64,000 nucleotides of DNA from Lepiota brunneoincarnata (Eukaryota; Basidiomycota; Agaricomycetes; Agaricales; Agaricaceae), in NCBI GenBank assembly GCA_023014365.1, contig JAEBUN010000051.1:1-64000 (forward strand), in the 5' to 3' direction. The notes beneath the pieces were generated by a model. That model ran no database searches and was not told the DNA's origin. It worked only from the letters and a program-made list of their open reading frames with translations. This document shows positions 4,019 to 41,761 of this stretch, one piece after another. The position numbers were made by a program, and so were the translations under genes. How positions within the stretch are numbered: position 1 is the first letter of the stretch; each line of letters opens with the position of its first letter.

Positions 4019-5141
4019 ATGTCTCCTGCCCACAAGCTCCTCAAGGTGCGCAATAGGGAAACCAATCAGCAACACTCCATCACCTACAAAGAGTGTTAGG
4101 GGAAGTAAGAGCGCCGGAACCAATTTGATATTCAGGTGGCGATTACAATTGCCACCCACGCTACATATATACATAGCGGTCTGCGCACAGACCAGGTAAC
4201 CAAACACTACAGTAGCTACCAGAAATAACACACACAAACAATATACAAACAACTATAGATGATAAGGTTGTCCGCGGATCGGGCTTGGGGATGGGGGTGG
4301 CCGAAGGCCAAGACTGGGCTTGGACATCAGGCATCGGCTAAGAAGGCCAAGCCCGGACATCCAACTACAAGTCCCTAGACGTACCTTGCGTAAGGGGGGG
4401 GGCATGACACGGAATGTGATGCCCGTCCCCTTACAAAGAGGATTTGACCACTCCAACCACTTCGCATTCTTCTCAAACATCCCCAGACCTCCACCGTCTC
4501 GCCATCTTCATTGTTCTTGAGGCTGCATATATTGCATTAACATTTTATTGCCTCTGGTCCCCCCATCGGCTGCCAATCGCAAATTACAGTACCACACTTG
4601 TCAAGGGTGGAGTCATTGCCATTTTCACACTGTGGCATACAATTGCTGTGACGTCTGTTGCAGGGATTTGCATGAATACCTTCAGCAGAGAATGGGCTGC
4701 ATGCCAACCCCCAACCGATGTCATGTCAACTGTGACTGCAAGTCTCCTGGATCGCGCATCATATTTCTTCACCACAAGAGCCACCAAAACATATAGAATG
4801 GCACTTGCTGCCTTTGTGATCCTTCTCGCCATAGGGACAACAGGGCGGTCCGCTATCACTGCTTCCTTTGGGGCCAATTTTCTGACTACCATCTCCATCG
4901 CTGTCATCAACTCAAAGAATACTACTCTCGGAGTTGATGATAACTATTTCAATTACCCTTCAATTCAAACGGCCCAAGTTGTACAACTGGAGAAGGTTGG
5001 GGGCTTGCTTGTGGGCTATGCGCCAGAGCCCAACTGGGTCATTCCTCTTCTGGCTGCCAACCAGAACCTCTCATCTCGCATTTCTTATGAGACAGACCTT
5101 GTACATTTCCAATACTCATGTGAATGGAGAGTGCCTGATAG
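4019..5141 (+). pseudogene. multi-pass membrane protein family, copy 1, 5' part (broken by two LTR insertions)
   Basis: The ATG at 4019 opens a frame starting MSPAHKLLKVRN that runs to codon 25 (4093), where a solo LTR is inserted. With the LTR and one target copy removed, the frame continues at 4441 with no change. It encodes hydrophobic segments (around IFIVLEAAYIALTFYCLW and a second near VIAIFTLWH), the family motif FSREWAACQP and a third segment (AAFVILLAIGTTG). At 5141 the Copia-1 element interrupts codon GAT-AGG and the gene resumes at 20138. Copies 2-4 of the same family lie at 21118, 42241 and 62271. The family is basidiomycete-like and of unknown function, probably at a membrane with a large extracellular loop rich in N-glycosylation sites. 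Copy 1 cannot make a full protein. Confidence 0.8.
4094..4435 (-). mobile_element. solo LTR of the KH-element family
   Basis: 342 bp starting TGTTAGGGG and ending CCCCTTACA on the plus strand, flanked by exact AAGAG duplications (4089-4093 and 4436-4440). It aligns in reverse orientation with the LTRs at 39064-39374 and 40656-40966, including the TATA region and the GCGCACAGAC stretch, but is more diverged and longer. It shows that the KH element moved in this genome before and inserted into a coding exon. Confidence 0.88.
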
Positions 5142-5494
5142 TGTTGAAGCAGTGAGGCATAAGCGAAGTGGCACTGGACACTCACATTGTAGCTTGAGAG
5201 AGTTGCTGAGAGAAGATAAAAGTGAGTTGTAGAGCAAGTAGATTGTTCTAAGGTAATACAAGAAATGTAGAGCTGTATTTATACTTGTAAGAGTCCACAG
5301 CGTGTACTATTCATGTAGAGACAAAAGGAGTCATATGTATGCATAGTGAATCATAGAGGTCAACACAGTCAGGATGAGCGAATAGCATTTCAAGCTCAAG
5401 ACTACGTATGACTAGGCATATGTCATAGATGTAAAGGTGCAAGCACAAGATGGCATCAGTGACCAGAAAAGGAAAATATATATTATTTTCAACA
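5142..5494 (-). repeat. 3' LTR of Copia-1 (family B)
   Basis: 353 bp, TGTTGAAG to TTCAACA. A TATAAATA box is readable on the minus strand at about 5274-5281. By eye only about 4 CpG sites remain, against 16 in the copy at 31453-31805. Confidence 0.92.
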
Positions 5495-5503
5495 TTCCCC
5501 CTT
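5495..5503 (-). other. polypurine tract of Copia-1
   Basis: Minus-strand AAGGGGGAA directly next to the 3' LTR; the plus-strand DNA primer site expected at this position. Confidence 0.75.
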
Positions 5504-7700
5504 GCTCAGACATTGGGAAGAGGAATTAAGAGGTAGAGTTCATAAACTCAATACCTAACAAAGGACAGAAACATTCAAACTTCATTTGACCTAGGTTTTT
5601 CATCAAAAGATCAGCAGGATTTTCATTCCCATCAATCTGAGATACCACAATCATTCTATTTTCAATGCATTCCCAAATGTAATGATATTGGATATCAATA
5701 TGCTTTGATCATCTTTCCATGGCAGGATTAACACTCAAGAAGATAGATCCCATGTTATCACCATTCAGGGGTATTGTTACCCGGGTTAGGGGTTCGCTCT
5801 TGAGTAGCACAGGGTTCGACACAGGATGTCTATACAGACTTGGTCCTGTCCTACTGAGTGTGACTTAGAGACAACAGAGCACTATAGTCCAGCTGGTTTA
5901 AGGGCAAAGAAATATATGTAGGAGGCAAGAACTGTATAACACTAAGATAAGGATACAAGGTATTGTACTGTATCCTTATATACTTCTAAGTGTGGCTATA
6001 CTCCTACTATAATAGTCCGGACCAAGGTAACTATGAGTCAGAGATAAGAGACATGAGGCATGTGGTAAGAATCGTCCTTCTGATGTACCCTACTGATAGT
6101 TTCATAGTGACATGGGAAATGTAGCTAAAAATAATTGTCCCTCTGATGGAATTCTGATAACAGGTATAGTGGGAAGTTCAAACATAAGCTCACTTAATAA
6201 GGAGCATATCCACATCAGTTGACAGCTACAATCAGAGAGAGCCATATATTCTGCTTCAGTGGAAGATAGTGTGATCGTTTTTTATTTACAGCTAAGCTAG
6301 GAAATGGTGCCAGAAGCAATGTTGACAAAATTCCTGGTTACAGATCGTTGCTTAATTGGATCTGATGCCCAATCTGAATTGGAATAACTGATAATTCCTT
6401 CACCCTTCTTTCCGTCATAGACAATTTGATAGTTGGGTGTGCTGAGCAGATAGTGACAAATATATAGTGCTTTATCATAATGCTCTTGCTTAGGATTTGC
6501 AGAAAATTGTGCCAGATTGGTGATGGCATATGCAATATCAGGTCACATGCCAATCATCAAGTACATCGAAGAACCAATGATCTGTTGGTACTTTGTACAG
6601 AGATCTGGATTGACTTCTCCATCATTTGTGGAAGGTCAGTAACCAGTAGGAAGGGGAGTGGGAGCAGGTTGAGCAGTGACTCCAAAATGCTCTAAGACCT
6701 TTTTCAAGTAACTCTGTTGGTCAAGGTATATCTTTCAATTTTTCCTATCATGCACAATGCGCATACCAAGGAATTCTTTGGCTTCACCAAGATCCCAGCA
6801 ATCCCAGTGCTCCATAAATTCTCCTTTCTTCTGTTTTAGAAGGGCAGAATTATTTCCCATGAAAAGCACATCATCGATATAGACAATGGCAATTACTATA
6901 TCACTGGTCTTTTTATCTTGATAAATATATATGCCAGCATCAGATTTACATCACTTAAAGCCAAGCATTTGCATAGATTCAGACATCTTGTGCCACCAGG
7001 CTAAGCCGGCTTGCTTAAGGCCATATAATGCACAGTCATAACCTCCATACCAAATTCTCTTTGCTGGGGATGCGAAATCCTTCCGGTTGTTCCATGTAGA
7101 TTTCTTCATCCAGTTTGCTGTTTAGAAAGGCAGTTTTAACATCTAACTGCTTCAATGTTCCAGTTTTCAAGCGCTGCCAATGCAAGAAGTATTCTGGTGG
7201 ACTTGTAGCAGACTACTGGAGAGAATAACTCATCAAAATCAATACCTTCGATCTGAGAGAAACCCTTTGCCACTCAGTGAGTACGTTTATGGCCATCAGA
7301 TTTTTCAGCAAAAACCCAATGGTTTTTGATAGCCTTTCAACCTTTCAGGAGTGGCATCAAATCATATACTTTATGCTTCTTTAAAGCTTCTAATTCCTCA
7401 AGGCATGCCTTTAACCATTCATTGTGTGATGCTTTTGAAAGCTTCATTAAATCATGGAAATTGGTGGGTATACCTTCTTGTTTTGCAGTACATTGTGCTA
7501 ACAAGTACTCTATGAAATCTACTCCTTGTTCTCTGCAAAACCAGTTGAACTTCTGGTTCCCCCTGAACCAGATATCCTGGTCCCCAAGGGAAATCAGGAG
7601 GAGCACACCACATGCAGTTCACAAATGCATTTGATTTCCTCCAGATCATGCAATTGACCTGGATGTCCATGGGTAGGATTCCAGTGTGGACTGATCCTTG
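5504..7700 (-). pseudogene. Copia-1 reverse transcriptase and RNase H
   Basis: Minus-strand reading gives the Copia RT start (near 7440, NEWLKACLEELEALKKHKVY), a GFSQ-type block, ALYGLKQAG, and the catalytic YIDDVLFMG at about 6880. RNase H follows with STEAEYMALS near 6250 and SKHIDIQYH near 5700. At least six in-frame stops interrupt it, so it is dead. The solo LTR 5775-6162 sits in the RNase H part; removing it and one GGTAT copy rejoins the frame (ELPTIPLNGDN). It would copy element RNA into DNA in cytoplasmic particles. Confidence 0.85.
5775..6162. mobile_element. solo LTR, unrelated family, inside Copia-1 RNase H
   Basis: 388 bp starting TGTTAC and ending GATAACA, with exact GGTAT duplications (5770-5774 and 6163-6167). 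No similarity was seen to the other LTR families in the window. Orientation is not certain. Confidence 0.85.
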
Positions 7701-15900: not shown

Positions 15901-16378
15901 GATATATGGATTTATTGTTTGAAGTAGATGTGAGAGTTACAACATTACAAGAGAGAGGGAAACTGGGAGGGGCTGGCATTGAACAGAACCTCCAAATCAA
16001 AAATTTGCAAATGGTTGCATAGTCAGGTCTTTGGACCAAGTCTTGTAGACTTCACTGGCTTTGGTTTCAGGAATAGATTTGATGATGGAACAGATTTTAA
16101 GGGACGTGTTTTGTATGTTGGTTGCCTTATCAATTTTCAGTTGTGGTTTAACAATGTTTGGGCACATGCGGGAGATGTGACCAGGTTTAAAGCAACAGAA
16201 GCACAAGCCTTTCTCATGGGTGCACTTTTCTTCAGATGTAAAGACAGCATTGACATCGATGTCATCATTGTGGGGGAAATGATCTGGTTGGTCTTCTTTG
16301 GCTTCTTCATATTCAGGTTGCAGATCACCAGGGATATTAAAAGAAGGGTAATATTTGGGACCTTCATTAAGGTATGTG

Positions 16379-17076
16379 TGTTATGATCCGTGCTCCTTCT
16401 GTATCCGAGGATAACTGGAGACGGCCTTCAATCACTCTACAAGGTGTCCGAGACGGTTGGCCTTATAGAGCTTAGTGGATCGCGCTCAATGAGATAACGA
16501 GGGAAGACGCCAAGTTAAGGCAGAGAGGTAAACGACCGCTGTTAACAAGATTAAAGCTTAGGGCTTTAATCTCTACTTGTACAGGCCTTATATACCTATG
16601 AGGTGCTATATACTCGTTATAGGTTACTTGGCTGTTCTACTGGTCGTCCGCAGTCCTGACCATGATGCACATCCTGGCTGATGGCATCCTAGTGTTATTT
16701 ATATTACAATGAGTCAGTACTCTCGCTACTGCTGTGCGATGTTCCATCGCTTTCCTCTGACTCATAATCTCCTTCTCCCGATTGTATCTCCATGGAGTCC
16801 TCTCCGTTCTCGCTCTCCATTCTCTCAGTGCTTCCATCCGTATCGGAGGTTGGATCGGTTGATCCATGGTTATCTTCTTCGTCCTCGGGGTATTCCAATA
16901 TATCCTCCAAGGTTATCTCCATTCCTGCTTCTCTCGCCAGGTCCTGCATGGCGGTGTAGTATTCCCCTTCCTCGTCTTCGTATTCTTGTGCCCGTAGTTG
17001 GTCTGTAGTCTCCTGTACCCATCTTGTAAAGTCGAACAGCAATTCTTGTTCCTCCCGGTCTGGACTGTTCATAACA
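16379..17076 (-). mobile_element. solo LTR, family A, copy 2
   Basis: 698 bp, minus orientation, with perfect ATGTG duplications (16374-16378 and 17077-17081). Very close to copy 1, so a recent arrival compared with copy 3. Confidence 0.92.
16704..17072 (-). CDS. acidic 122-aa U3 ORF of family A LTR, copy 2
   Basis: Same length as in copy 1, with about four residue differences (for example QLR for QLQ and HGSTD for HGPTD). It starts at base 5 of the LTR. No domain recognised. Confidence 0.5.
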   Translation of the reverse strand: MNSPDREEQELLFDFTRWVQETTDQLRAQEYEDEEGEYYTAMQDLAREAGMEITLEDILEYPEDEEDNHGSTDPTSDTDGSTERMESENGEDSMEIQSGEGDYESEESDGTSHSSSESTDSL

Positions 17077-19767: not shown

Positions 19768-19779
19768 GGGCCCATAACC
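19768..19779 (-). promoter_or_regulatory. primer-binding site of Copia-1 (initiator-Met half-tRNA type)
   Basis: The plus strand reads GGGCCCATAACC directly beside the 5' LTR, matching the anticodon stem-loop of eukaryotic initiator tRNA-Met (CAT anticodon). Drosophila copia and relatives prime from a cleaved initiator tRNA in this way. Copia-2 has the identical site. Confidence 0.75.
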
Positions 19780-20132
19780 TGTTGAAGCAGCAAGGTGTAA
19801 GCGAAGTGGCACTGGACACTCATGTTGTAGCTTGAGAGAGTTGCTGAGAGAAGATAAAAGTGAGTTGTAGAGCAAGTAGATTGTTCTAAGGTAATACAAG
19901 AAATGTAGAGCCATATTTATACTTGTAAGAGTCCACAGCATGTACTACTCATGTAGAGATGAAAGGAGTCATATGTATGCATAGTGAATCATAGAGGTCA
20001 ATGCAGTCAGGATGAGCGAATAGCATTTCAAGCTCAAGACTACATATGACTAGGCATATGTCATAGATGTAAAGGCACGAGCACAAGACGGTGTCAGCAA
20101 CCAGAAAAGGAAAATATATATTATTTTCAACA
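19780..20132 (-). repeat. 5' LTR of Copia-1 (family B)
   Basis: 353 bp, same ends as 5142-5494. Differences between the pair are mostly CpG-type transitions. Confidence 0.92.
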
Positions 20133-20137
20133 GATAG

Positions 20138-31190: not shown

Positions 31191-31452
31191 AAAGTTGCCA
31201 TCGAGTCTTCATCTCTAGGGATTGAGATAATGTCTCGATGGCACTGCACACTGTGATACCGTCAAAATTTCGGTTTTCTTTCATAATTCAGTGTTCGGTT
31301 GCGCCTCTATCGCTTGGTCTTCAAGCTCCAAGCCCCAAGCTTTAAGTTCCATCAGTGCTTTCTATTTTTATCGTTCCGACCTATATACATGAGTTATCCG
31401 GGTAATAGCCCGAGGTAGACTAGATATTTCTGGGTCAGAGAGGGAGTGGTTC

Positions 31453-31805
31453 TGTTGAAAATAATTTATATTTTCCTTTTCTGGTCGCTGACGCCGTCTT
31501 GTGCTCGCGCCTTTACACCTATGACATATGCCTAGTCATACGTAGTCTTGAGCTTGAAATGCTATTTGCTCGTTCTGACTGCGTTGACCTCTATGATTCA
31601 CTATGCATACATATGACTCCTTTCGTCTCTACATGAGTAGTACACGCTGTGAACTATTACGAGTATAAATACGGCCCTACATTTCTTGTATTACCTTAGA
31701 ACAATCTACTTGCTCTACAACTCGCTTTTATCTACTCTCAGCAACTCTCTCAAGCTACAACGTGAGTGTCTAGTGCCACTTCGCTTACACCTCGCTGCTT
31801 CAACA
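31453..31805 (+). mobile_element. solo LTR of the Copia-1 family (family B)
   Basis: 353 bp, with exact GGTTC duplications (31448-31452 and 31806-31810). Opposite orientation to the Copia-1 LTRs. It keeps 16 CpG sites, against about 4 in each Copia-1 LTR, so it is younger or lies in unmethylated DNA. TATAAATA lies at about 31663-31670. Confidence 0.9.
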
Positions 31806-31879
31806 GGTTCACCTCTCAATACTCTGGCTTTTATCTACCCCCTAAAAGAGGTCCAATGTCGGTTCGCGTGAAACTATAC

Positions 31880-34870: not shown

Positions 34871-35216
34871 TGATGATTGGGTATTCGCGCAGACGTATGA
34901 CTCGAGACACAGTATGTATAAGTTTGGGACCACTGGGACCCAGTATAGGAAAACTTGTAAGCACTCGTAAAGATACGTCGAGGGTATGAACGCACCTGGG
35001 ACCCAGTATAGGAAAACTGGGGTCCACAGGTGCTCGGACCACTACCTAAGTACGACGAGAATGTGTACAATTATTTGCTAAGTAATGTAACTCGATCGTC
35101 GTTGCTAGCAGGAATATAAAAAGTCCATAATGAAGTACCTACGGTGACTAAGGACAATATGAAATAGCCAAGAAAACAATAAGCGACATCGAGCTGGACG
35201 GCTCGGTATTTCGACA
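34871..35216 (-). repeat. 3' LTR of Copia-2
   Basis: TGATGATTGG to TTTCGACA. Contains two copies of a segment reading CAGTATAGGAAAACT. A purine-rich GTGGGAG (minus sense) lies beside it at 35217-35223. Confidence 0.93.
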
Positions 35217-38200
35217 CTCCCACTCAGTGAGATGTCAGTTAGGAGGCAACACGCCGAGACGAGCGCGGAACTTAACAAAGGACTCTCGAGGGAGAGCCTT
35301 GGTGAAAATATCCGCGAGCATATTTGTCGTAGACACATAGCGCAACTCGATCTCCTTGGTCTCCACGCGTTCACGGATAAAATGGTGACGTATGTCAATA
35401 TGCTTGGCGCGAGAATGGGCAACCGGATTGGTGGAAAGCGCGATACACCCCTGGTTGTCTGCGTGGATGATGGTAGCGATCGTTTGTGGGAAATCCAGCT
35501 CCTTGAGCAACGTGCGAAGCCAGATCACCTCCTTGGTGGCATTGGCAGCCGCAACATACTCGGCCTCAACGGATGAGGTGGCAACTGTGGGTTGTTTCTT
35601 CGAAGACCACGAAATAGAGCTACCAGCGACTTCAAAAACAAAACCTCCGACGGACCTTCGGTCATCGGAATCCTGAGCCCAATTGGAATCCGTCCAACCA
35701 ACCAAGTCGAGAGCATCCTGCCCACGTCTTCCCAAGATCAGACTGTAATCAGCTGTACCCTTGAGGTAACGGAGAACGCGCTTCGCAGCCTCCAAATGAG
35801 CGATGCCTGGGTTACCACCAAATTGGGCAATGAGGCCGACAGCGAACTGGATGTCAGGTCGCGTCTGTGTGGCAAAGAGGAGCGAGCCGACGAGGGACAG
35901 GTAATGGATATCACCCGCATGTTCAACATAGGCGCGTTTTTCATTGGTGGTGCCAGGGGAATGAGACCGGGTGAGGTTATGTTTAACAGGAAGGGGGGTG
36001 GAAACCGGGTTTGCATCCTGCATGCCGAACCGGACAAGCATTTGGCGGATGTAGGCTGTTTGGTTGAGATATATGAGGCGATTTGCGCGATCTCGTACAA
36101 CGGCAATTCCAAGCATGTACTTGAGCTCCCCAAGATCGGTAATGTCGAACTCTCCACCTAGAGCTGACTTGAAGGACATGATCTTGCATCCTCCAGGACC
36201 TGCAATAGCCATATCGTCAACATAAACGAGGACAATGAGTATAATCTTGCCGTCTTCCTTGCTGAAATACAAACAATCATCAGCAAAGGCACGCGTGAAG
36301 CCAAGTCCGGTGAGGACTTCATGTAGCTTCTTCTTCCATTGTCTTCCGGACTGACGTAGGCCATATATTGGTTTCCTCAACCTCCAATAGCGAGCACCTG
36401 ACCCGTACTTCTCTACACCCTCCGGAACCTCCATATAAATTTCTTCATCTAATTCCCCTTGAAGATAGGCTCCCACAACGTCCACCTGATGAATATCGAA
36501 ATCGAGGTGAGCAGCATAAGCGAGGAAAACACGGAGAGTGGTGAATTTAGCGATGGAGGAGAACGTTTCAGTGAAGTCTTCACCAGGGACCTGCGAGAAG
36601 CCCTTCGCAACGATCCAGGACTTGTATTTGACCAGATTCCCATGCTCATCAGTTTCCACACGAAAAACGATCCGACTCCCAACAGCTTTCTTCCCCTCCG
36701 GTAATATATCCACCTCCTCAAACACGCCTCGTGCCTTGAGCTGGTCAAATTCAGACTTGATCGAACTCTCCCACTGCTTCACAGCAGGGGACCATTGGAC
36801 TTCACGGTACGTGCGAGGCTCATTGCGTATAGCCACAAACGCAAAGTTAATGCCATTATCCAGAGATACTGCACCGTCAATGGCAAGGTTCCCAAACCGC
36901 TCTGGGACTCGACGTTCACGCCCAGAGGGTTCACGCTGGGGAAGGGAGGCCCACTTGGAAGACTTCCGAGGGGCAGGAGGCGGCTCAACTCTCCCACTGG
37001 GGATAGGAGGAGGGGGTGTAGATGGGCGTCCTGGCTCAGCAGGGGATGAGGGAGACTGAACGGTAGGAACAACGTCCAACTCGGCAGTGGTGGGACTGAG
37101 CTCAACTGAAGCACTAGGCCCAGGAACGATGCCAACAGCATTATCCACCAACGTATCAACTTCTTCAGCAGAAGGCGCAGGATCACTAACTTCCATGATC
37201 GCTAACTCGCTGGGGGAGCTATCCTCATAGAAACGAACATCCCTGGATGCGATTAACTTGCCATTCTCAAGATCTTCAAGGCGGTATCCCTTCGTCTCAT
37301 CAGTCCACCACCCTAGCATGCGGACCTTAACGGCCCTCGACTCCAGCTTCCCTTTGCGTACCTGCTTGGGGACGTGGGCCCACCCAAGAGACCCGAAAAT
37401 GCGGAGGTGCAAAATGCTGGGCTTATGCCCGGTCCAAGCCTCATAGGGAACGATGCCTTTCAACCCAGAGGTGAGAGTGAGACTCCTGATGTGTACAGCG
37501 TACATAAAAGCTTCCCCCCAGTAGCGCAGGTCAACTCCTGCAGTATATAACATGCAGCGGACCATTTCGAAGAAGACAGCGATCGCACGTTCTGCAATAC
37601 CATTTTGCTCGGGGAGGTAGGGGTTGGACGTCTCATGAATGATACCATTGCGGCGGCAGAACTCATCCATGACAGAATTAACGAACTTGGTGCCGTTGTC
37701 ACTCCGGAAACGACGCGTCTTGAGACCTGATTGGCGTTCCAACATCGCAACCACATCCCATACAGCCGCTCCAGTCTCCTCTTTGTCCTTTAGCAACCTC
37801 CCGACTGGGTAATGACAGCTGACTTCAACAACAACAAGGGCATACAGGTGGCCATCCCAAGTGGGGACGGATATAGGGCCAGTGAGATCCATGACAACTA
37901 GCTCCATTTTGGCATACTGACTTGAGCTTGCAGCGGGCAAAGGTAGACGGTGAGACTTTCCGTTTGCACAACCGCTGCAAAGGTGATCAAAATCATGAGG
38001 GGCTCGAATATCAAGACCCTTAACAGCATGTTGGCGAGACATAGCATCAATGGTAGAGGGGCTCAAGTGCCCCATACGTCAATGCCAAAGACGCATGGAG
38101 GGGCCACCTGCAAGGTAAGCAACCTCGCCCCTATTCTCTGCACAGTGAATATGGTATAGAGTACCAGCCGATCCGGTAAGAATGGCACGGAACAAATCCT

Positions 38201-39063
38201 CGCCACTTGCCGAAATCACCAACCCATCTTCGCTACTCTGCACGGAGGCACCTTCACGCTGTAGGACACCAAGACTGACTAGATTTGCGCCCAACTGCGG
38301 AACATGGAGAACATCGTGTAGGGTCACATTGAGGTATCCACCAGTCAATACAGCCTTGAACCTTACTGATCCACAACCCTTCACGGCAACTTTGTTATGC
38401 CCACCCACAGTAACATACTTGTTGGACACCTCTCGGTTGGAAATGAAACGCTCTCGGTCCATGAACATGTGAGTGGTTGCACCACAATCAAGGATGATTC
38501 CGATAGTGGTGGTAGAATTCGAAGAGGCCATCAACATTTTTCCGACCTCACGTTCCCCCAGGGATTTCAGATCGTCAACAGCCAAGTTAGCAGATCCACC
38601 AGACTTGGTGGGCGCATCCTTGCCCTTCCGTCTTGGCTCGGGGCAGTCAGGACTCCAATGTTCTTTTTTGTGGCAATTGTGACATTCATCAGTGGGTTTA
38701 ACCTTCTTCATCCGCCTAGCTTTCCTCGTATCCTTATTACCTGAGTTTCCAGAACCGGTCAGCCGTGACTTGGCAACCAAGGCCAGCTGATCAGACTTGG
38801 CCTTCAAGGTATCACCACTGGCATGCTCGCGTTCGATTCGGTGGTGTGTCATAATCAACTCAGCCTTCACCTTGTCAAGGGTAAGGCTCTTTCCTTGGCT
38901 GAGGAGGGATTGTTTGACGACATCCCAGACACCGGAGGAGGGGAGGGAAAGGAGTATATTGTGGATGAGAATGGTGTCTTCAAGCCTCTCGCCCGCTTCG
39001 ACAATGCGACGGCGACGGCTCAAGAAGGCACCAATATGTTCGGTCATGGAGGTACGTTCCTCC

Positions 39064-39374
39064 TGTAAGGGGACTATACCCCCTTACGCAAGGTACGTCT
39101 AGGGGCCTGTGGTTGGGTATCTGTGCTCGGCCTCTCTAGCCGATGCCCGATGCCTAAGCCCGGCCTCGGCCTTCGGCCACCCCCATCCCCGAGTCTAACC
39201 CACGTGCGACTGACGTTGTTTGTATATTGTTTGCGTATGTTATGTTCTAGTAGCTACGTAGTGTTTGGCTACCCAGTCTGTGCGCAGGCCTCTATGTATA
39301 TAAGTAGTGTGGGTGTCGATTGTATTCGCCACCCAAATATCAACTTGGTTCCGGTGCGCTTACTTCCCCTAACA
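39064..39374 (+). repeat. 5' LTR of KH element
   Basis: 311 bp; TATATAAG at 39297-39304; expected transcript start near 39331. Confidence 0.93.
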
Positions 39375-39386
39375 GAATATTTGGGT
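39375..39386 (+). promoter_or_regulatory. predicted self-priming primer-binding site of KH element
   Basis: ATATTTGGGT (39377-39386), two bases after the LTR, is the perfect complement of ACCCAAATAT at 39331-39340, which begins 34 bases after the TATA box. With one bulged A the pairing extends one more base. This mirrors the chromovirus arrangement at 18580-18591. Confidence 0.6.
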
Positions 39387-39455
39387 CTCTACGCAGACTC
39401 GCCAATCTAGCCCTCTGCACCCCACCTACCCTGTCTTCTCAGCTCTAACGCTAGT

Positions 39456-40607
39456 ATGCCCCGCCGAAAGTCCTCAGGCAAACAGAAAGCGACTGTGCCC
39501 GCCCTACCGACAATGGCCCCTGCCTCGGCAGGACCCTCGCGTTCAGGCGAGGATACTCAGGCCTTACTGGCCCGGATCGGCGAGCTTAACCGCTCGATCG
39601 GTTCGCTCTCATCCCGCCTGCGCACCCTCGAGGATCGCACCTCGACGGCTGCTGCCGGTCCTACTCCAGCTGTCATCCAAGCAGCTACTACCCAGAAGGG
39701 TCGCTCGCGGATCTCCGCGGATGTCCCACGCACTTCTAACCGCCCGGGCCCCACTCGCCCCACGGTAAAAGGCACCTCTACCGCCCTCCCGCTGTCGGCT
39801 CACTACCCACGGGACGACGAGGCCGATCGCTATCAGGCCACCCTTGTCATCGCCGACGACATGGGTGGGCACGTGGTTGGTCGCGGCGGCCGCGGCCTTA
39901 AACAGGTCGCCGACATTAGTGGCGCTCACCTCCGGGTCTATTCTGTGGCCACGGATGGTGCCGACGAGCGCCATGTCTCTATCAGGGGGACCGAGCAGCA
40001 ACTCGGTGATGCCCTTGTGGTATTAGGTAAGCGGATTGCGCGCAAGCGCGTCCACCTTCCAAAGACAAAGAAGGAGAAGACAACGGCGGCTTCCGGCCCC
40101 GCCCCAGCGGCCCCCGGACCGTCCGCTCCTGCAGCGGCGCAGGCTCCCGCTCCAGCTCGTGTGGATCCCACTGCCTCCGGCTCTGCTACCCCGGTCCCTG
40201 ACTGGGCGCATCCGGGTGCACGGTCTTCCTCGCAGGCCTCTTCTGTCGCTCCCACTCCCCCCATGATCTCTACCCCGGCCGGCGTCCCATCGACTACTAT
40301 GCGTACAGCCGCACCTACTCCTACCCCTATGCGCTCGCCCGCGGTTTCTCGGCAACCGTCGCGCGGCTCCCCTATGCCCATCTCTACCCCCTCCGGTGCG
40401 TCTACTCCCGGAGTCCCATCAGTCCGGATGGGAAGCGCTACCCCTACCCCGGCCTTGACCCCGATGGAGGTCGACAGTGTCATCTCGACCTGGGGCCAGG
40501 GACTTCCGCCTGTCGCCTACCCGGCCCGTCTTGACTATGCCCGTTCCCTTCTGGCGGATGGGCTTGTCATTCGGCTTGTGGATGGTCGCTGGGCTCGTGC
40601 TGCTTAG
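39456..40607 (+). CDS. KH-domain protein encoded by the LTR element
   Basis: Intact 383-residue frame from an ATG 81 bases after the 5' LTR to a stop 48 bases before the 3' LTR. The N-terminus is basic (MPRRKSSGKQK). Residues about 33-60 form a probable coiled coil (LLARIGELNRSIGSLSSRL). A KH RNA-binding domain spans about 128-198: YQATLVIADDMGGHVVGRGG contains the GxxG loop (GRGG), followed by the helix LKQVADISGAHLRVY and SIRGTEQQLGDALVVL. Residues about 205-350 are a Pro/Ala/Thr/Ser-rich disordered region; the last 40 residues are more ordered (LPPVAYPARLDYARSLL). Coiled coil plus RNA-binding domain suggests a gag-like role, binding element RNA for packaging, but no gag fold is recognised. 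High GC and CpG content fits a young insertion. Confidence 0.85.
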   Translation: MPRRKSSGKQKATVPALPTMAPASAGPSRSGEDTQALLARIGELNRSIGSLSSRLRTLEDRTSTAAAGPTPAVIQAATTQKGRSRISADVPRTSNRPGPTRPTVKGTSTALPLSAHYPRDDEADRYQATLVIADDMGGHVVGRGGRGLKQVADISGAHLRVYSVATDGADERHVSIRGTEQQLGDALVVLGKRIARKRVHLPKTKKEKTTAASGPAPAAPGPSAPAAAQAPAPARVDPTASGSATPVPDWAHPGARSSSQASSVAPTPPMISTPAGVPSTTMRTAAPTPTPMRSPAVSRQPSRGSPMPISTPSGASTPGVPSVRMGSATPTPALTPMEVDSVISTWGQGLPPVAYPARLDYARSLLADGLVIRLVDGRWARAA

Positions 40608-40642
40608 GACGAAGGAACCGAGTCGTCGGGTCATCGACTCTT

Positions 40643-40651
40643 AAGAGGGGG
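40643..40651 (+). other. polypurine tract of KH element
   Basis: AAGAGGGGG four bases before the 3' LTR, the usual position for plus-strand priming. Confidence 0.65.
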
Positions 40652-40655
40652 CTGG

Positions 40656-40966
40656 TGTAAGGGGACTATACCCCCTTACGCAAGGTACGTCTAGGGGTCT
40701 GTGGTTGGGTATCTGTGCTCGGCCTCTCTAGCCGATGCCCGATGCCTAAGCCCGGCCTCGGCCTTCGGCCACCCCCATCCCCGAGTCTAACCCACGTGCG
40801 ACTGACGTTGTTTGTATATTGTTTGCGTACGTTATGTTCTAGTAGCTACGTAGTGTTTGGCTACCCGGTCTGTGCGCAGGCCTCTATGTATATAAGTAGT
40901 GTGGGTGTCGATTGTATTCGCCACCCAAATATCAACTTGGTTCCGGTGCGCTTACTTCCCCTAACA
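40656..40966 (+). repeat. 3' LTR of KH element
   Basis: 311 bp, three transitions from the 5' LTR (for example GGGGTCTG for GGGGCCTG). Confidence 0.93.
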
Positions 40967-41403
40967 CCTCCCACTTCATAGTAAAGAGTTCTTGGTAGGA
41001 ATAATGAATGCTGACATCGCGGCATTGGTCCACATAGAATGTACGAAGTTTGTCCCACATCTCCTTAGACGACAGGACTTCGCCAATGTGTTCTCGCTCG
41101 CTGAATTCGATAGCGCCTCTTATCAACCCCATCGCAGAAGCATCAAGCTTCTTCCAGGTAAGGTAATCCTTCTTCGCCTGCAACCATTCCTTGTAGATGG
41201 GTGAGTATGTCGTTAACGGCTTCGATTCATCACCAGTAGGAGGATCAGCAGATGGCTTTGGGGGACATTCCTCCAGTCCCTCAACATGGAACCAGAGTTG
41301 GCGTGCTTGGAGCGCGGCTTTCATATTGTCCGACCACGCATAGTAGTTTTTGCCGTCCAACTTGGCAAAGTGGACAGATGTCTCGGAAACGGAATCACTA
41401 GCG

Positions 41404-41415
41404 GGGCCCATAACC
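41404..41415 (-). promoter_or_regulatory. primer-binding site of Copia-2, overlapping the gag start codon
   Basis: Plus-strand GGGCCCATAACC adjoins the 5' LTR and matches the initiator tRNA-Met anticodon loop. The complement of its CAT (41409-41411) is the ATG that opens gag. Confidence 0.75.
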
Positions 41416-41761
41416 TGATGATTGGGTATTCGCGCAGACGTATGACTCGAGACACAGTATGTATAAGTTTGGGACCACTGGGACCCAGTATAGGAAAACT
41501 TGTAAGCACTCGTAAAGATACGTCGAGGGTATGAACGCACCTGGGACCCAGTATAGGAAAACTGGGGTCCACAGGTGCTCGGACCACTACCTAAGTACGA
41601 CGAGAATGTGTACAATTATTTGCTAAGTAATGTAACTCGATCGTCGTTGCTAGCAGGAATATAAAAAGTCCATAATGAAGTACCTACAGTGACTAAGGAC
41701 AATATGAAATAGCCAAGAAAACAATAAGCGACATCGAGCTGGACGGCTCGGTATTTCGACA
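41416..41761 (-). repeat. 5' LTR of Copia-2
   Basis: 346 bp; one base different from 34871-35216. The minus-strand frame stays open from within the LTR into gag. A minus-sense TATA-like TTTTTATATTCC lies at about 41656-41667. Confidence 0.93.

Follow-up and report, generated by a model that had tools for sequence, protein, structure and literature searches.

A stretch of 64,000 nt from Lepiota brunneoincarnata (hereafter, the window) contains an LTR element of 1,903 bp (39064–40966) whose sole gene is an intact 383-codon ORF for a KH-domain protein. In our judgement, this KH element is probably a non-autonomous satellite of a self-priming Ty3/gypsy chromovirus, and its protein an RNA-binding helper that acts in cis, perhaps in packaging.

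Structure and copies of the KH element

The KH element has the features of an LTR retrotransposon: direct LTRs with TG...CA ends, a target duplication, a primer site and a polypurine tract. It lacks the Gag, protease, reverse transcriptase (RT) and integrase of an autonomous element, since its one ORF matches KH_1 only. The coordinates, the two 311-bp LTRs, the exact 5-bp duplication (CCTCC) and the polypurine tract given in an initial annotation of this DNA were confirmed to the base; the LTRs (39064–39374 and 40656–40966) have 3 mismatches between them. The features in the window are as follows (coordinates, strand, description and, where given, basis).

39059..39063, no strand, target duplication CCTCC, left copy (sequence)
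39064..39374, plus strand, 5' LTR, 311 bp, TGTAAGGGGAC...CCCTAACA (LTR comparison)
39297..39303, plus strand, TATATAA box inside the LTR, a putative promoter; the box starts 34 nt before the self-primer (sequence)
39331..39340, plus strand, self-primer ACCCAAATAT, the predicted 5' end of the element mRNA (complement of the primer-binding site)
39377..39386, plus strand, primer-binding site ATATTTGGGT, exact complement of the self-primer, beginning at the third base past the LTR
39425..39435, plus strand, leader 11-mer CCTACCCTGTC, common to the leader of the partner chromovirus (a lead)
39456..40607, plus strand, KH-protein ORF, 383 codons (ORF and Pfam)
39543..39644, plus strand, coiled-coil helix, residues 30–63 (model, pLDDT 85–90)
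39795..40052, plus strand, KH type I domain, residues 114–199, with GXXG loop GRGG at 142–145 (Pfam, model, fold match)
40461..40475, plus strand, PMEVD motif, residues 336–340, resembling PM[DE][ILV]D of the partner's Gag family (putative function)
40643..40651, plus strand, polypurine tract AAGAGGGGG, followed by CTGG; the tract ends 4 nt before the 3' LTR
40656..40966, plus strand, 3' LTR (LTR comparison)
40967..40971, no strand, target duplication CCTCC, right copy
4094..4435, minus strand, solo LTR of an older subfamily, with its own duplication AAGAG and self-primer version ACCTGAATAT

The last of these had also been recorded initially as an older LTR of the family, with bounds that proved exact. 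Given its ∼81% identity to the LTR of the KH element and its different self-primer version, we assign it to an older subfamily of the same kind.

The KH element sits within the gag region of a minus-strand Copia element. The flanking ORFs (38079–39047 and 40932–41411) match Pol_BBD and Copia-type gag in Pfam, and the LTRs of the host Copia (34871–35216 and 41416–41761; 346 bp, 1 mismatch) are flanked by duplication GTACT. The Copia LTR ends, TGATGATTGG...TTTCGACA, differ from those of the KH element. Other repeats in the window, which occur in direct and inverted orientations, include an inverted pair at 98% identity (1560–2258 and 16378–17076) and stretches at 5142–5507, 19776–20134 and 31440–31809.

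In the whole genome (55.6 Mb, 95 contigs) we found at least 17 full-length copies of the element at 96–100% identity and others at 80–88%; these copy numbers are lower bounds, as the search scored 40 of 375 candidates. Thirty copies were fetched. An exact 5-bp duplication flanks all 27 that have both ends (L018, L019 and L030 have one end missing). The element is thus not a chance arrangement, given these duplications and the near-identical full-length copies. The two LTRs of a copy differ at 0–10 of 311 sites (median 5) in 16 copies of the young A type, and the 26 bases that end the LTR were found at 126 genome places with at most 3 mismatches, full-copy and solo LTRs being pooled in this count. 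Judged from these sequences, the KH-element family is real, recently active and has repeatedly transposed as whole LTR elements.

A candidate autonomous element with nearly identical LTRs, L067 (C21:503400–508200), was rejected. Its LTRs have separate duplications (CACAC; ATGCC) and are thus two KH-family solo LTRs, inserted separately in a decayed gypsy element, where they mimic an autonomous partner. In older KH copies (L054, L055, L057 and L059) the ORF contains stops, and at its ends many Arg residues have changed to Cys, His, Gln or Trp, the pattern expected from C-to-T decay at CpG. The genome also contains a distant KH relative with 38–41% identity, at C59:129439–129960 and C53:21453–21971; more than one paired match of this type occurs on these two contigs, which may represent alternative haplotypes of a single region.

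Priming and the candidate partner chromovirus

Self-priming was surveyed in 27 copies, excluding L019, which has a single LTR, and L011 and L018, whose 5' LTR is missing or misassigned. Nineteen of them have the self-primer ACCCAAATAT with its complement ATATTTGGGT, and seven have a doubly compensated version, ACCTGAATAT with ATATTCAGGT, in which two positions are changed on both sides. A 10-nt self-primer is thus present in 26 of the 27 copies, L026 being without a match; when the 20 bases past the LTR were shuffled, a 10-nt complement was reached in 25 of 20,000 trials. The junction of LTR end and primer site has 54 matches in the genome, and a KH match (among those picked as likely first parts) follows immediately after 52 of them. 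The exceptions are a KH remnant within the fetched stretch L066 (C26:37884) and a place where the next KH match lies 7 kb on (C25:73442). On this pattern of complementarity, we class the primer site as a self-primer of the Tf1 type. The primer site recorded in the initial annotation is present, but as far as the sequence goes it is not a tRNA site: tRNA priming was rejected for the KH element, since the second version has lost the TGG start and kept the self-primer complement. Self-priming of Tf1 and Tj1 is reported in PMC4600332.

An autonomous element with matching LTR ends, for which the initial annotation proposed to look, was found in the same genome. It is a Ty3/gypsy chromovirus, L066, with LTRs of 453 bp (0 mismatches) and duplication AATCC. 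Its Gag has Retrotrans_gag and a zinc knuckle, and its pol frame of 1,396 codons encodes protease, RT, RNase H, integrase, SH3_Tf2-1 and a chromodomain. The full pol frame is present in at least six genome copies, a lower bound since the pol/integrase search scored 94 of 1589 candidates. Like the LTR of the KH element, the L066 LTR starts with TGTAAGGGGAC and ends with CCCTAACA, followed by GAA. The KH element and the chromovirus have in common the polypurine tract/LTR start TGTAAGGGGAC, the LTR end CCCTAACAGAA and 5-bp duplications. L066 also has its own 10-nt self-primer, at the same offset as in the KH element (52 of 20,000 shuffles).

The pattern GGGGG-4N-TGTAAGGGGAC occurs at 88 genome places and at none in a reversed control; having 16 fixed bases, it would miss partners with other tracts. 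Of these junctions, 79 adjoin either a KH ORF (52) or a chromovirus integrase (27), in a typing based on 33 of 94 integrase matches and on the 107 KH matches less the final three, and 9 are near neither element. The 4-nt spacer CTGG adjoins a KH match in 52 of 53 cases, TAGA or TGGA adjoins a chromovirus integrase in 27 of 30, and five other spacers adjoin neither. When all 94 integrase matches and all 88 junctions were used, a junction was found within 1.5 kb of 28 of the 35 integrases with at least 77% identity, of 1 of 35 with 58–74% and of 0 of 24 with 42–43%. Frequent only near high-identity integrases, these ends thus mark a chromovirus clade together with KH elements, not gypsy elements at large.

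Beyond the ends, likeness between the LTRs of the KH element and L066 was insignificant (18 of 300 shuffles were as good). In a comparison that covered the ends in L066 and the places of the pattern, the KH element shares with L066, and not with other gypsy clades, its LTR ends, tract junction, length of duplication and mode of priming. An L066-type chromovirus is, on these sequence features, the likely partner of the KH element, which, having no enzymes of its own and ends that match a complete element, probably travels on borrowed machinery.

Selection, fold and relatives of the KH protein

Among the 19 readable A-type copies (a twentieth is truncated by a contig end), the ORF is open in 17: it has 383 codons in 16 and an in-frame 15-codon duplication in C52. 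The two exceptions lack a start (C17:679438) or are frameshifted (C20:195281). The ORF is open in all six B-type copies. Absence of the ORF from other copies, frameshifts in most of them or a match to one host gene had been named initially as signs of an incidental capture; the ORF is retained in 17 of 19 A-type and 6 of 6 B-type copies, most of the readable copies of these types are not frameshifted, and the 16 KH_1 matches outside the family are absent from the match list of the ORF.

A stop codon interrupts 5 of the 30 fetched ORF matches; the dN/dS analysis was performed on the 23 that are complete and stop-free. Between subfamilies A and B (96 pairs), dN was 0.094 and dS 0.289, with a mean dN/dS of 0.325 (range 0.26–0.38). 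By region, the A–B ratio was ∼0.23 in the KH domain, where dN is at its minimum, and in residues 201–335, 0.32–0.37 in the stretches upstream of the KH domain and 0.65 in residues 336–383. In a neutral null model the same substitutions were scattered with base and CpG type preserved. The null mean was 0.78–0.85. In four comparisons, made on three pairs with one of them run in both directions, the observed value was each time below 300 of 300 draws; 30–48 of 300 null draws were stop-free. A pair within A (dN/dS 0.60) did not depart from the null, 110 of 300 draws being as low, which is expected of copies drifting after insertion. The comparison of dN/dS between copies, proposed in the initial annotation, thus gave an A–B value below all neutral draws and, with the 27 of 27 duplications, agrees with its description of a mobile non-autonomous element with a maintained KH gene. 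Judged by these substitution patterns, the KH ORF is under purifying selection between subfamilies A and B. Selection alone does not establish a packaging role.

The only Pfam match of the 383-codon ORF is KH_1 (residues 129–187, E-value 2.6e-7, above the family cut-off), with no other family up to E-value 1. This agrees with the single intact KH ORF with a GRGG loop, and with the absence of protease, RT and integrase, that had been read from the DNA initially. In an AlphaFold2 model (mean pLDDT 64.8), the predicted coiled coil appears as a helix at residues 30–63, followed by a KH fold (114–199) and a small helix-helix-hairpin (336–381); the rest is mostly of low confidence. The capsid-like fold suggested for the N-terminal part was not found in the model, where residues 1–113 form one coil and low-confidence stretches. 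All 50 matches listed by Foldseek are KH domains, the best being KH3 of hnRNP K (E-value 1.9e-5), and sequence search agrees, with hnRNP K/PCBP KH domains best. With its KH fold and GXXG loop, the protein has a KH domain, and the model suggests that it binds RNA. Residues 336–383 have pLDDT of about 80–88 and yet the highest dN/dS; this fairly confident fold may evolve under different pressure.

Related proteins numbered 37 in one search and at least 136 in a profile search, 120 of them listed; each search scored only about 8000 candidates. The named sources among the 120 are all agaric fungi: Mycena citricolor, Termitomyces and Phlegmacium glaucopus (two). Many of the others lie on contigs of 1–2 kb. 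KH_1 was found in 118 of 121 family members and other Pfam families in none, with no Gag or zinc-knuckle match among them. Of 121 aligned members, 112 retain GXXG, and 80 of 92 long ones have a basic, nuclear-signal-like patch after the KH domain. The breadth of this set indicates that the KH protein family is old. The 35 pattern stretches in viral_contigs and the 73 in genome_contigs, both non-fungal collections, yielded no confirmed relative. Nor was a close host parent gene found. The genome has 58 KH_1 matches, of which 16 do not belong to the family; these occur singly or in multi-KH clusters, and the match list of the ORF itself contains none of them.

Possible leads on the function of the protein come from the leader and from the C-terminal half. 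The leader 11-mer CCTACCCTGTC, spotted post hoc, is located at base 51 past the LTR in the KH element and at base 46 in the chromovirus; 18 of 3,000 dinucleotide shuffles shared at least 11 bases, none in register. All 29 leaders present among the 30 fetched copies retain its last 10 bases, L019 being without a leader. When the two leaders were aligned locally with gaps, however, 30 of 300 shuffles did as well. KH domains of the hnRNP K/PCBP type prefer C-rich stretches; a C-rich leader as KH target was rejected, since 2408 of 5000 shuffles were as rich. The motif PM[DE][ILV]D is present in 111 of 120 listed relatives of the partner's Gag (P0121–P0240; 0.3 of 120 in shuffles), 15–17 residues upstream of the zinc knuckle where both were found. 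PM[QED][IVL][DS] occurs in the C-terminal half of 50 of 91 long KH relatives, and a broader motif in 62 of 92 versus 0.7 from shuffles. This PM-type sequence, common to both families, may be a general motif. Derivation of the KH ORF from Gag was rejected, as comparison with the partner's Gag gave an E-value of 0.16 and matched the motif patch only.

Possible roles and known systems

Together, the leader 11-mer, the Gag-like motif and the logic of a satellite gene favour a cis-acting RNA-binding helper in packaging or reverse transcription. The chromovirus would supply Gag, protease, RT and integrase, while RNA of the KH element could prime itself. Translated from the RNA of the element itself, the coiled-coil/KH protein would oligomerise, bind that RNA preferentially in cis and help it into the partner's particles or reverse-transcription complex. 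On evolutionary grounds a preference for cis is expected, because a gene carried by a satellite should persist only when its own transcript is favoured; LINE-1 ORF1p likewise acts on the RNA that encodes it, mostly in cis. Packaging, primer annealing, stability, export and translation are all candidates for the step that the protein serves. Tentatively, the satellite may encode a packaging adaptor: the coiled-coil/KH protein would bind satellite RNA and imitate the partner's Gag via PM[DEQ][ILV]D, so that satellite RNA replaces that of the partner in chromovirus particles. Such elements would be an old, widespread class of LTR parasite in mushroom-forming fungi.

The closest folds, KH domains of hnRNP K and PCBP, belong to proteins of mRNA fate, and together with the nuclear-signal-like patch they would fit a protein that acts outside the particle by stabilising or exporting RNA, boosting translation or shielding RNA from silencing. 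We regard this reading as rather doubtful, as it leaves the Gag-like C-terminal motif unexplained. That motif, common with the partner's Gag family, and the Gag-like order of coil, linker and nucleic-acid-binding domain could also point to a substitute Gag, as the initial annotation had it, which would pack RNA into its own particle or RNP and borrow enzymes only. The proposal is unproven and in our view unlikely: the model has no capsid-like fold, none of the 121 members has a Gag or zinc-knuckle match and homology to the partner's Gag is not detectable (E-value 0.16).

The shared motif and leader 11-mer would equally allow competition, with a KH protein that favours the satellite mainly by hindering the partner (e.g. 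poisoning Gag or occupying the packaging signal). Retention of the full pol frame in at least six partner copies and the identical LTRs of the fetched copy, L066, make such an antagonist very unlikely. Non-autonomous LTR elements do capture host genes, and dN/dS near neutral within the young A copies is what a host KH gene picked up by chance, with no role for its ORF, might give. Incidental capture is nevertheless extremely improbable in view of purifying selection between subfamilies, retention of the ORF across copies, at least 136 relatives with one layout and a match list with no near host gene. The cis-acting helper of a chromovirus satellite remains the reading that we favour.

By definition, a TRIM is a short LTR element with no coding gene; the KH element is not a TRIM because it codes, with a 383-codon ORF under selection. 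Fungal TRIMs such as Helenus are, like the KH element, small and non-autonomous with 5-bp duplications, and one fungal TRIM matches an autonomous Copia in its internal ends and not in its LTRs (PMC10886601), much as the LTRs of the KH element and L066 are alike only at the ends. Unlike the KH element, Helenus-type TRIMs carry a tRNA-like sequence in their LTR and are primed by tRNA, with Copia proposed as the partner, and the accessible text of that source makes no mention of a KH gene in them (PMC10886601). TR-GAG elements of plants are also short LTR elements with a single ORF, and have been shown to transpose despite missing most proteins; their ORF is a gag related to autonomous Copia (PMC8704663), whereas that of the KH element encodes a KH protein with no gag homology, and the element is related to a chromovirus. 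As no gag was found, the KH element is not a TR-GAG. In Tf1 and Tj1, as in the KH element, the primer-binding site is complementary to the presumed start of the mRNA (PMC4600332), and the partner chromovirus resembles them in its SH3_Tf2-1 and chromodomain. The KH element differs from them in having no Gag, protease, RT or integrase, and in 26 of 27 copies the complementarity, with its compensatory change, conforms to Tf1-type self-priming.

At the protein level, hnRNP K and PCBP have the same KH type I fold and are the best sequence and fold matches, though they are cellular proteins with several KH domains, whereas the protein of the element has one KH domain and an N-terminal coil. LINE-1 ORF1p offers an analogy as a coiled-coil RNA-binding retroelement protein that acts mostly in cis; it belongs to a non-LTR element, has an RRM and a C-terminal domain instead of KH and is not homologous. 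A literature search, with Repbase reports and most subscription journals outside its scope, found no paper describing an LTR element that carries a KH gene. The usual view of non-autonomous LTR elements is that they are passive and have either a leftover gag or no gene at all; in this LTR satellite a non-Gag RNA-binding gene has been preserved by selection. How TRIMs hold on to an autonomous helper is called unknown in PMC10886601. With a satellite, a candidate helper, shared ends and a possible link protein all in one genome, the question of the helper becomes directly testable.
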